Virus record (IMG/VR): IMGVR_UViG_3300031787_000521
Span: 1 to 32,407 of that record
Direction: 5' to 3' (one strand)
Origin: a virus
Length of the DNA: 32,407 bases
A program made the translations under genes and the position numbers. How positions within the stretch are numbered: the stretch's first letter is position 1; each line of letters opens with the position of its first letter. The notes under the pieces were generated by a model. It searched no databases and was not told where the DNA came from. It worked only from the letters and a program-made list of their open reading frames with translations. Positions 14,361 to 18,881 of the stretch are shown here, one piece after another.

Positions 14361-15373
14361 CCACCGCAATCGAGCGCCGCTACCTCCTCACGGCCGACTA
14401 CCCGGACGCGATCACCGTCCAGACTCGCGACGGCGAGCCCCCAGTGATCACCGGAATCTCGCCGCCGTGGGATTCGTTCTCCGTAGATCTTGGAGGCTTC
14501 CGCGAGAAGTTCGCGCCCACGGCCTTCGACGGACTGGTCGACCGCAAAGCGAACGATCCACGCGGCAAGCTCGATGTGCCGTTCCTCACGGATCACCTGT
14601 CGCACCTGATCACGGGCCGCACGACGAACGGCCGCCTCGAAATCCGCAAGGCCTTGAAGGGCCTCGAATACGTTCACACCCCGATTCCGACGACCCACGG
14701 TCGCGACCTCGCGATGCTCGTGGAAGATCGCACGATCACCGGCGCGAGCTTCGCCTTCACGGCTGCCCCCGACGGCGAGACCTGGACGGAGGACGAGAAG
14801 GGCAACGTCGTGCGGACCGTGTTCCGCGCGTCGGGCCTCTACGACATCTCGGCCGTCACCTACCCGGCCTACCCGCAGAGCACGGCCGGCATCCGGTCGC
14901 TGCCGCTCTGGAAGCAGGCCCGGAGCGTGATGGCCCACCGGTCAGAGTCTCGCGGCCTGACGATCTCTCTCGACTTCGACGGCACGTTCACGGCGGCCCC
15001 CGGGCTGTGGCGATCGTTCGTCACCGACGCGCAGTCCCGTGGCAACCGCGTGGTGTGCATCACCCGCCGCGACGACACGGAGGAAAACCGGGCCGTCCTG
15101 AGGCAGGCTTTCGGCGACTTGCATGACGAATTGGCCGGCGTGCTGCTGGTCGGGCGGGACCAGCAAAAGCGGTCGGCCGCAGCAGCCGCCGGCCTCACCG
15201 TCGACGTCTGGATCGATGACTACCCCGAGGGGATTCCTGTGATCTCGGCAACCCTCGCGGCCGAAGGCACCAGGGCCTTCAAGGTTTCCACGCTCGCCGG
15301 GGCACGGGCTGCGGCTGCGGCGGCAGCTGCCCGGATGCGCACCGTGCTTGCATCAACGGAGGCTGCGAAATGA
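14357..15373 (+). CDS. Prohead protease fused to a HAD-like hydrolase domain
   Basis: This 338-aa protein has two parts. Residues 1-190 are an HK97 (S78) prohead protease: FLTDHLSHLITGRTTNG with His80, ITGASFAFTA with Ser131, and AVTYPAYPQS. These proteases mature the capsid by cutting the delta domain of the capsid protein. Residues 200-300 read as a HAD-superfamily phosphatase: LDFDGT (Asp206, Asp208), CITRRD (Thr236), Lys271 and WIDDYP (Asp287/288), all four motifs in order. The alanine-rich tail ends the protein. Fusion of these activities is unusual and its purpose is unknown. Confidence 0.85.
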   Translation: MTTAIERRYLLTADYPDAITVQTRDGEPPVITGISPPWDSFSVDLGGFREKFAPTAFDGLVDRKANDPRGKLDVPFLTDHLSHLITGRTTNGRLEIRKALKGLEYVHTPIPTTHGRDLAMLVEDRTITGASFAFTAAPDGETWTEDEKGNVVRTVFRASGLYDISAVTYPAYPQSTAGIRSLPLWKQARSVMAHRSESRGLTISLDFDGTFTAAPGLWRSFVTDAQSRGNRVVCITRRDDTEENRAVLRQAFGDLHDELAGVLLVGRDQQKRSAAAAAGLTVDVWIDDYPEGIPVISATLAAEGTRAFKVSTLAGARAAAAAAAARMRTVLASTEAAK

Positions 15374-15741
15374 TCTCTTCTGCGCCTGTTGCCGAGGCCA
15401 CCAAGCTCGACGCGAACTTACTCGACAAGATTCGCGCGTTCATTTCCACGGCTAAGTCGGCCGCGGCCGACGGCCTGACGTGGGCCGAGTTCGGCGATCT
15501 CATGCTGGCCCTGCTGCGGCTTGTTGTCCCGGCTCTCGACACGTTCCGCAGCGTCAGCGGACCAGAGAAGAAAGCATTCGCGCTGGAGGCCGTCGGCATG
15601 CTGTTCGACGCCGTGGCTGACAAGGCCGTTCCGGTGGCCGTATGGCCGCTCTGGCTGATCGTGCGGCCGGCCGTTCGGTCGCTCGTGCTCGCACTCGCGA
15701 GCGGTGCCGTGGAGCAGCTGCTGCCGCTTTTGAGGGTGTGA
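15370..15741 (+). CDS. Hydrophobic small protein, possible membrane partner
   Basis: This 123-aa helical protein has LTWAEFGDLMLALLRLVVPALD in the first half. A long hydrophobic stretch follows at residues about 83-122 (VPVAVWPLWLIVRPAVRSLVLALASGAVEQLLPLL), likely one or two membrane helices. It starts the eight-gene cassette that interrupts the usual protease-capsid order, overlapping the protease gene by ATGA. Holin-like behaviour is possible but not shown. No family with known function is recognised. Confidence 0.65.
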   Translation: MISSAPVAEATKLDANLLDKIRAFISTAKSAAADGLTWAEFGDLMLALLRLVVPALDTFRSVSGPEKKAFALEAVGMLFDAVADKAVPVAVWPLWLIVRPAVRSLVLALASGAVEQLLPLLRV

Positions 15742-15743
15742 CC

Positions 15744-15998
15744 ATGCTCGACAACGTGCGGCTGATCGTGGAGTGGGCTCCCCTGCTCGGCTACGCGCGG
15801 CGGCTGTCGGCCGCCACTGACGAGGCGGGCAAGGCTGACGCCATCGCCGACGCGATCGAGTGGCTGGCCTCCAAGACCGGCAACCGCCTCGACGACGAAC
15901 TTGCCCGCCGGATCGCGGCCGTGTTGAGAACCGCAGAGGGTGCGGCTCTGGCCGGCTGGATCGCAGACAAGGCCACGGAACTGGAGACGACAAAGTGA
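15744..15998 (+). CDS. Small helical protein of unknown function
   Basis: This 84-aa, wholly helical protein has alternating charged and hydrophobic faces (LIVEWAPLLGYARRLSAATDEAGKADAIADAIEWLASKTG). The start is backed by a GAGGGTGTGA site. It lies 2 bp after its neighbour and shares a GTGA overlap with the next gene, so it belongs to the same translational chain. It could be a scaffold or adaptor for the membrane proteins on either side. Nothing in it reveals a catalytic activity. Confidence 0.65.
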   Translation: MLDNVRLIVEWAPLLGYARRLSAATDEAGKADAIADAIEWLASKTGNRLDDELARRIAAVLRTAEGAALAGWIADKATELETTK

Positions 15999-17486: not shown

Positions 17487-18301
17487 TCGCGATCAATGCC
17501 GACACGCGGACCTTCTTCCGTGCTCTCGGGCGAGCCGCTGCACTGGTTGCCGCCTGGGCTGCGATCGCCGCAGCCGCCCCCTGCGACAACTGCCACGGAG
17601 AGCGAGTCGTCGGCCCCGGGCCGGTGCGGTTCGCCTGCCCGCTCTGCGACGGTGCTGGAGTAATCGCCGCTCCGCCTGCCCAGCCGTCTCAGCCGGCGGC
17701 TGCCGTTGCCGGCGGCCCCCGACCCGCGGTCCCACGCGTGGTATGCGGATCAGGCCCTTCCACTGACTGCGGCTCCGGCGTGCTCGTCGATGTCCGTGGC
17801 CGCCATGCCCTCGTGCTCACTGCTTGGCACGTAGTACGCGGCAATCGCGACACCATCACGATCCGCTGGCCCGACGGCACATCGGCCCCGGCGCGCGTGG
17901 TTGCCAGCGACGAAGCCTTTGACCTTGCAGCCCTCGTGACGGCAGCCCCAGCCGCGGCACCGGTGCGGCTCGCGGCCCGCCCACCGGCCCCTGGCGACAC
18001 ACTCACGGTCGCCGGCTACGGGCCGCCGCCATTCGCCTACAGAGAAAAGTCCGGGCCGATGACCCAACGGCTTTCACCGTTCGGCCCCCGCCACCCCTTC
18101 CACATGCTCGAACTGCGGGCCGATGCGCGGAAGGGCGACAGCGGCGGCCCGATCCTGAACGCCAACGGCGAGCTGGCCGCGGTGCTGTTCGGCTCCGACG
18201 GAACCGTGGCCGCCGGCAGCGATGCCACGGAAATCCGTGCCCTGATCGCGAGGGCGAAGTGGCCGTCCGACTGTCCGGACGGGAGGTGTGCGAAGCGATG
18301 A
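17483..18301 (+). CDS. Secreted trypsin-like serine protease with zinc finger
   Basis: This 272-aa protein starts with a hydrophobic signal segment (residues about 14-32, ALVAAWAAIAAAAP). A DnaJ-like CxxC zinc finger follows (CDNCHG at 34-39 and CPLCDGAG at 52-59), then a proline-alanine linker. The S1 protease has a full triad: His116 in TAWHVV, Asp147 in AFDLAAL and Ser220 in KGDSGGPI. It should work outside the cytoplasm. A secreted trypsin-type protease is uncommon in phages. Paired with the papain-like protein and flanked by membrane proteins, it suggests proteolytic attack on the host envelope (inference). Confidence 0.85.
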   Translation: MIAINADTRTFFRALGRAAALVAAWAAIAAAAPCDNCHGERVVGPGPVRFACPLCDGAGVIAAPPAQPSQPAAAVAGGPRPAVPRVVCGSGPSTDCGSGVLVDVRGRHALVLTAWHVVRGNRDTITIRWPDGTSAPARVVASDEAFDLAALVTAAPAAAPVRLAARPPAPGDTLTVAGYGPPPFAYREKSGPMTQRLSPFGPRHPFHMLELRADARKGDSGGPILNANGELAAVLFGSDGTVAAGSDATEIRALIARAKWPSDCPDGRCAKR

Positions 18302-18603
18302 GCACGACGGACCTCGAGGAGCATGTCTGGCGGTCGCTCGCCGCACATCCGATCCGCCGCGCAATGCTTGGCCGGGAGCGGTGCGACGCGATTGTGGCGA
18401 CGACCCTGGTCGAATCGCCGAAGGGCAGCGAATCCCTGTTCGCCGGTCACGACAGCGCGGCCATGCGGGAGCGGTGGGAGCAGCGTGTGCGGCTCGTCTA
18501 CCGCGACCGCTGCGGCTCGCCACTGCTGTCGATGCTGCTGTTTTGGGCCATCGGGAAGATCGTGGAAATCATCGTGCAACGGTGGTGGGAGCAGCGGACA
18601 TGA
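18298..18603 (+). CDS. C-terminal-anchored small membrane protein
   Basis: This 101-aa protein has a charged helical N-terminal domain and a hydrophobic C-terminal segment (SPLLSMLLFWAIGKIVEIIVQ, residues about 75-95) ending WWEQRT. This tail-anchor topology suits an antiholin or inhibitor that keeps a soluble domain in the cytosol. ATGA overlap with the protease gene; a GGGAGGT site lies about 11 bp upstream. The next gene also overlaps by ATGA, so the pair is likely expressed together. Confidence 0.68.
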   Translation: MSTTDLEEHVWRSLAAHPIRRAMLGRERCDAIVATTLVESPKGSESLFAGHDSAAMRERWEQRVRLVYRDRCGSPLLSMLLFWAIGKIVEIIVQRWWEQRT

Positions 18604-18881
18604 GCAGCGAAGTGATCGAGATCGGGGTCCGGGTCGCCCGAGAATTTGGATTCCCGTGCCTTGTGCTGGCGGTCGTGCTGTGGCTCTTGCGCGAGGGGGC
18701 CCACGCGATGCACCGGACTGTGGTGATTCCAGTCGTGGAATCGCACTCGTCATTCCTCCGGCAGACGACCGCCACGCTCGAAGGTCTCGGCCGGACGCAG
18801 GAACAGCAAGCCGAGACGCTCCGCGAATTGGCCGCCGGGCAGCGCGAAATTCATGCGGCGGTCGTCCGGGCCAAGGGCTGA
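18600..18881 (+). CDS. Holin-like protein, one helix plus coiled coil
   Basis: This 93-aa protein has one N-terminal transmembrane helix (residues about 17-35, FGFPCLVLAVVLWLLREG). A soluble coiled coil follows (about 45-90: SFLRQTTATLEGLGRTQEQQAETLRELAAGQ). A short helix then a coiled tail is a known holin class layout (compare small bacteriophage 'BhlA/holin-like' proteins). As the last gene before the capsid block it is the best holin candidate of the cassette. The specific family is not proven. Confidence 0.65.
   Translation: MSSEVIEIGVRVAREFGFPCLVLAVVLWLLREGAHAMHRTVVIPVVESHSSFLRQTTATLEGLGRTQEQQAETLRELAAGQREIHAAVVRAKG

Follow-up and report, generated by a model that had tools for sequence, protein, structure and literature searches.

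A candidate lysis cassette with a papain-family protease in temperate phages of Planctomycetota

The 32,407 bp IMG/VR record IMGVR_UViG_3300031787_000521, which was analyzed in its entirety (referred to as the window), carries eight plus-strand open reading frames (c1 to c8, positions 15370-18881) between the genes for the prohead protease and the major capsid protein. Among them are several small membrane proteins, a papain-family cysteine protease (c5), and a secreted serine protease (c6). In our estimate, the chances are about even that this block is a lysis or egress cassette of temperate tailed phages from Planctomycetota, with the papain-type enzyme in the place of the endolysin. It is the best candidate for the exit of these phages, in which no cell-wall-cutting enzyme was recognised. 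The reading as a lysis unit is based on the combination of small membrane proteins, a conserved enzyme devoid of a signal sequence (signal-anchored in a second cassette, type B, described below), and secreted helper proteins.

Proteins encoded in the cassette

The protein c5 (16617-17486, 289 amino acids, no signal peptide) has by itself no match in Pfam (0 families up to E=1) or PHROGs, and a profile of its close family had none in PDB. Relatives were gathered by a profile search of Planctomycetota genomes; the divergent members are 20-41% identical, and several are encoded on large chromosomal contigs. The resulting family profile matches papain-family structures in PDB (Xylellain, 3ois, 1.4e-13; cathepsins), and PF00112 is detected in 9 of 23 family members (best 9.2e-11), while the window protein itself has no match. 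The alignment of 23 c5-family sequences has 13 invariant columns, which include Gln76, Cys82, Gly233, His234, and Ser253. An AlphaFold2 model computed from 34 close sequences had a predicted local distance difference test score (pLDDT) of 39 and no fold match. This was resolved by adding the 20-41% identical prophage homologues, which led to a model with a pLDDT of 88 and a predicted template modelling score of 0.88. A Foldseek search with this model returned 53 PDB matches at E<=0.001, with Xylellain (1.5e-6), cathepsins, papain, and their relatives among the matches listed. The surface-layer-associated cysteine protease Cwp84 was also matched, and viral structure matches include unstudied phage proteins named "Peptidase C1A".

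By fold prediction and active-site residues, c5 belongs to the papain family of proteases (C1), and its active site is intact, its activity and substrate being predicted. The sequence-only reading had already proposed a papain-like protease with Gln76/Cys82/His234, and structure model, Foldseek, PDB profile, and residue invariance all agree with it. With papain C1 proteases (PF00112; nearest structure Xylellain 3ois), c5 shares the fold and the order and spacing of Gln, Cys, and His. A fourth catalytic position is Asp252 (YPDSYD) in c5 from the cassette type found in the window (type A), in place of the catalytic Asn of the family (ANSWG). The papain motif NSWG is present in divergent prophage members (Asn in L256, L264, and L271-L276), whereas the window protein has Asp252-Ser-Tyr. 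Further differences from papain are the lack of a signal peptide and of a Pfam match of its own, and the invariable location within a phage cassette for membrane proteins.

The protein c6 (17483-18301, 272 amino acids) carries an N-terminal hydrophobic segment, followed by a CxxC...CxxC finger and a Trypsin_2 domain (E 3e-19; 70.6 bits vs. a cut-off of 27.6). A profile search against PDB retrieved MarP, DegS, and DegQ at about 1e-13. By family, c6 is a secreted HtrA-like protease with predicted activity, and the earlier proposal of a secreted trypsin-like protease with a finger is borne out by the Trypsin_2 match and the invariant His116/Asp147/Ser220. The secreted proteases HtrA, DegS, and MarP, a periplasmic family, have the Trypsin_2 domain with His-Asp-Ser in common with c6. 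They differ from c6 in their PDZ domain, which was not found in the Pfam scan of c6, a protein that ends soon after the protease domain, and c6 has the DnaJ-like finger at its N-terminus in addition. Matches of c6 in PADLOC reflect the trypsin domain only. The catalytic residues of both proteases (Gln76/Cys82/His234 in c5; His116/Asp147/Ser220 in c6) as well as Cys34/37/52/55 from the finger are near-invariant among about 55 members of each family and fully invariant in sub-alignments, and the catalytic motifs are thus not due to chance.

The eight genes are tightly packed. From the prohead protease to c8 there are eight junctions, of which seven are 4-nucleotide (nt) overlaps (ATGA/GTGA), the first of them being an ATGA overlap of c1 with the stop codon of the protease gene; c1 and c2 are separated by a 2-nt gap. 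The coordinates and order of the block had been given correctly by the sequence-only reading, as had the helical nature of c2, the single-pass topology of c3, and the tail anchor of c7. The descriptions of c1, c4, and c8 hold in part. Transmembrane (TM) segments are clear in c3, c7, and c8 in nearly all family members. c3 (15995-16246, 83 amino acids) has a single N-terminal TM segment in 47 of 49 members, and it has counterparts in prophages. c7 (18298-18603, 101 amino acids; counterpart at L264:2198-2533) has a C-terminal TM segment in all 48 members. c8 (18600-18881, 93 amino acids) combines an N-terminal TM segment with a helical tail in 46/46 members. This is the topology for which it had been called holin-like, a label that a holin family match does not back. 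c2 (15744-15998, 84 amino acids) is helical and has no TM segment. c1 (15370-15741, 123 amino acids) is also helical and, having been described as hydrophobic, has one TM segment at its C-terminus, which is weak. For c4 (16243-16620, 125 amino acids), the N-terminal signal or anchor is present and is followed by a small domain of unrecognised fold, no structural relative having been found by sequence. It also accompanies c5 in divergent cassettes. The possibility that c4 is a lipoprotein was dropped as not convincing, a Cys close to the end of the signal being present in just 24 of 55 members. This Cys and the TM segment plus helical tail of c8 were considered with regard to a spanin pair, and there is no match to a spanin family.

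Distribution and exchange of the cassette

The c5 protein is encoded on about 95 viral contigs. Sufficient flanking DNA is available for 32 distinct loci, and in 29 of them all eight genes are present in the same order, so that the eight-gene order, for which a search in related phages had been proposed, is widely retained. Two of the three exceptions lack only a recognisable c1, and the third (L110) is reduced to c4, c5, and TM proteins. Only one kind of recognisable foreign gene was seen to interrupt the cassette, a DNA-methyltransferase-like gene placed between c4 and c5 in three relatives (L008:624-1970, L014:433-1713, L016:4300-5592).

In 16 of the 32 loci the cassette is positioned between protease and capsid genes as in the window, and in 7 it is elsewhere or its place is unclear. 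The other 9 belong to another virion type with a lambda-type portal and the non-homologous capsid Phage_capsid_4, where the cassette is found between tail genes (e.g., L012, L055, L063). In L006, c4 and c5 are 95-96% identical to those from the window, yet no head gene of the window was recognised beside the cassette. L067, in contrast, shares the virion genes of the window, and its c5 is just 74% identical. The cassette thus moves independently of the capsid. Comparison of these loci shows that the set is passed on and swapped as a whole, and that it occurs in at least two virion types unrelated to each other.

This distribution bears on two other explanations. One of them is a role in the virion or in entry: c5 and/or c6 might be packaged, or might cut capsid or host surface proteins during maturation of the head or entry of the genome. 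A head operon, between portal/protease and capsid, is a natural place for a protease. However, the phage encodes an S78 prohead protease of its own, the cassette occurs elsewhere in other phages, for instance among tail genes and in combination with a non-homologous capsid, and several of the cassette partners carry signal or TM segments. We consider such a role improbable. The other explanation is a module for lysogeny or exclusion, which would alter the host surface against other phages or counter a host defence. The phages are temperate, having an integrase, and the module is mobile, as would be expected for such a function. Its overlapping genes, however, are part of a late head operon rather than a stand-alone lysogeny gene, and the cassette is whole in nearly all members, and we would give this explanation very little weight.

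Where it is readable, the slot between protease and capsid genes holds a different cassette, type B, in the portal relatives L138-L142 and in about 110 contigs found via their enzyme. In it, a homologue of c1 is accompanied by a TM protein, by a different papain-like protease whose N-terminus carries a signal anchor, and by two small TM proteins, of which one has a Cys cluster. Sequence searches of Pfam and PDB gave no match for the type-B protease, which is called papain-like from its motifs (QGIGDC, AHC, LNSWG; in general form QGxGDC...AHC...LNSWG). When compared to the c5 family by hhalign, there was no match with a shallow alignment, and a deep alignment gave 66% probability with E 5.5e-5. 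This score is moderate, and the two enzymes are therefore assigned to one fold class, without a close relationship being taken as proven. Every relative with a readable slot has a papain-type cassette between protease and capsid. The slot is thus filled by one of two cassettes, with c1, membrane proteins, and a protease of papain-like type in common. The block had previously been described as an interruption of the protease-capsid gene order. This is correct for the window, but it is no one-off, as the slot also holds papain-type cassettes in relatives, and in other phages the cassette is located elsewhere.

An integrated prophage, 90% identical and with about 80-93% identity to the window in its head genes, was found in a contig from a metagenome-assembled genome of Planctomycetaceae. 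An integrase marks one end of it, and beyond the other end are host genes (MFS/acyltransferase, flavin adenine dinucleotide oxidoreductase). Other Planctomycetota genomes have prophages in which a divergent cassette adjoins the terminase, on contigs of 275 kb and 447 kb, and these cassettes keep c1-, c3-, c4-, c5-, sometimes c7-, and c8-like genes. In prophage versions (L260:18006-18386, L255, L264:1831-2211), c6 is replaced by a secreted thioredoxin (Thioredoxin_2, 1.3e-9). For none of the three enzyme types (c5, type B, prophage version) was a match found in a cultured phage. The assignment of the host phylum to Planctomycetota is well supported by the prophages, in line with the planctomycete host that had been suspected from the sequence.

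Lysis and the alternatives to it

The sequence-only reading had seen no muramidase, amidase, or transglycosylase elsewhere in the genome. Consistent with this, no peptidoglycan hydrolase was found by gene scans of the window (best 25 families in two of the lists). Six-frame searches for Amidase_2, Phage_lysozyme, CHAP, Peptidase_M15_3, NLPC_P60, and SLT, which were positive in control genomes, found none of these in the window and in 18 other cassette-bearing records (type A or B); in the relatives, these six families and no others were searched. No relative with a classical endolysin in place of the cassette was found among the portal and lambda-type capsid relatives. The gene at 30668-31258 matches phrog_2252, labelled "endolysin; inhibits RNA polymerase", and was rejected as a lysin. 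It also matches a dATP/dGTP pyrophosphohydrolase; dGTP_diPhyd_N is among the domains of the window proteins and Amidase_2 is not, which speaks against the label. The product looks like a dATP/dGTP diphosphohydrolase, and the phrog_2252 label is a trap for automatic annotation.

If the cassette serves in lysis, c8 and/or c3 and c7 would act as holin-type membrane proteins, releasing the signal-less c5 from the cytoplasm late in infection. c5 would then cleave peptide bonds in the envelope, either in the stem or linking peptides of peptidoglycan or in proteins that anchor the wall or the outer membrane. c6, or the secreted thioredoxin found at its place in other prophages, may help to dismantle or prepare the protein layer of the envelope. 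In type B, the papain-like enzyme carries a signal anchor itself, a feature also known from some endolysins.

Like the holin-endolysin-spanin cassettes of double-stranded DNA phages, the block is a compact, mobile late unit in which small membrane proteins are combined with a single conserved candidate for envelope degradation, and in both cases there are signal-less and signal-anchored versions of the enzyme, here represented by types A and B. It differs in that its enzyme is from family C1, not a muramidase, amidase, NlpC/P60, or CHAP protein, in having an additional secreted protease or thioredoxin, and in the lack of a holin or spanin family match, its role in lysis being a predicted one. 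A partial parallel is provided by the pseudomurein endoisopeptidases PeiW and PeiP (C71), cysteine peptidases used by methanogen viruses to lyse a wall that is chemically unusual (PMC10318531). PeiW and PeiP are transglutaminase-like and belong to another family than c5; the comparison is from literature only.

Several points weigh against a lysis function. No member of the c1, c3, c7, and c8 families matches a holin family, the lysis phenotype is a prediction from the genes, eight genes exceed the usual need for lysis, and the position among head genes would fit a virion role as well. The IMG/VR records come without a completeness estimate. Planctomycetes have peptidoglycan sacculi that are sensitive to lysozyme (PMC4432640), so that the rationale of a protein-rich wall, from which lysis by proteases had been proposed, is outdated. 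It follows that either c5 cuts peptidoglycan peptides, or a host enzyme or an unrecognised one does so and c5 acts on envelope proteins. The former is disfavoured, because the known wall enzymes of the papain-like superfamily are from the NlpC/P60-CHAP and C71 branches, not from C1 (PMC10318531). Furthermore, one planctomycete phage has been reported to exit its cells without lysis (PMC10945688), and egress may differ here, too.

Another explanation is an envelope accessory module, which would break or loosen protein layers, such as the surface layer or the outer-membrane tethers, much as spanins do; the peptidoglycan would then be left to a host autolysin or to a phage enzyme that was not recognised. 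The ordinary peptidoglycan of the host (PMC4432640), the secreted HtrA-like c6, Cwp84 among the Foldseek matches of c5, and the thioredoxin in prophage cassettes are in line with it. Some phage proteins are still without an assigned function (g25734, g27006), none of which, however, matches a hydrolase, and the six lysin families are absent from all 19 records. We thus consider this explanation rather unlikely, though worth keeping in mind. Returning to the lysis cassette, a more far-reaching version of it would be that host lysis by the tailed phages of Planctomycetota is brought about by a papain-family protease, released by dedicated membrane proteins and aided by an HtrA-like protease or a thioredoxin, with no classical peptidoglycan hydrolase, and that this is a previously undescribed system with two interchangeable cassette types. 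We propose this only tentatively and have some doubt that it holds in full.

In the literature searched, no description of planctomycete phage lysis was found, nor was the cassette module described. The cassette provides candidate genes for the exit of phages from planctomycete cells. If the protease is the lysin, the lysis system would be of a new kind, with a papain-type enzyme in the role of an endolysin in bacteria whose wall was long taken to be made of protein. c5 could then serve to open planctomycete cells, and its gene as a marker of their phages in metagenomes.

Other features of the phage genome

A perfect direct repeat of 127 nt is present at both termini of the window (1-127 and within 32162-32407), and the window genome is therefore probably complete. 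The terminal repeats suggest a circular or terminally redundant genome. A 65-nt tandem repeat, which contains a hairpin, comes after the 127-nt repeat. Encoded are YqaJ/RecT recombination proteins, a RuvC-like nuclease, TerS/TerL, portal, prohead protease, HK97-type capsid, tape measure, and an integrase. By gene content, this is a temperate, siphovirus-like phage.

Upstream of the cassette, the prohead protease gene (14357-15373, plus strand; Peptidase_S78, E 2.8e-24) codes for an S78 protease with a fused C-terminal domain (14950-15330). This domain matches the separate phage families phrog_4919 and phrog_4256 and resembles a phosphatase of the haloacid dehalogenase (HAD) type. Downstream is the gene for the HK97-type major capsid protein (18994-20220, plus strand; Phage_capsid, E 3.6e-20), preceded by a conserved intergenic element and leader (18898-18993, plus strand). 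The 23-nt element GGCCTATAGGGCCAGTCGGTGSC occurs in three copies in the window, with 0 expected by chance. These are located ahead of the tail-fibre module (7107-7129), the portal gene (12717-12739), and the capsid gene (18908-18930). Relatives from the same lineage retain the element as CTATAGGGCAAATCGGTGGC. It is likely a promoter or processing site and, as such, would set transcription of the capsid gene apart from that of the cassette.

Direct repeats of 11 nt (ATCGCAAACSG) are clustered at 5265-5347 within a DUF1376-like gene (4929-5771). The cluster looks like the iterons of a replication origin inside a replication gene. A Cys-rich protein of 708 amino acids (27006-29132) has no family match and is fast evolving, with a length of 1126-1146 amino acids in the relatives L006 and G001. 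It is probably a tail-tip or adhesion protein.

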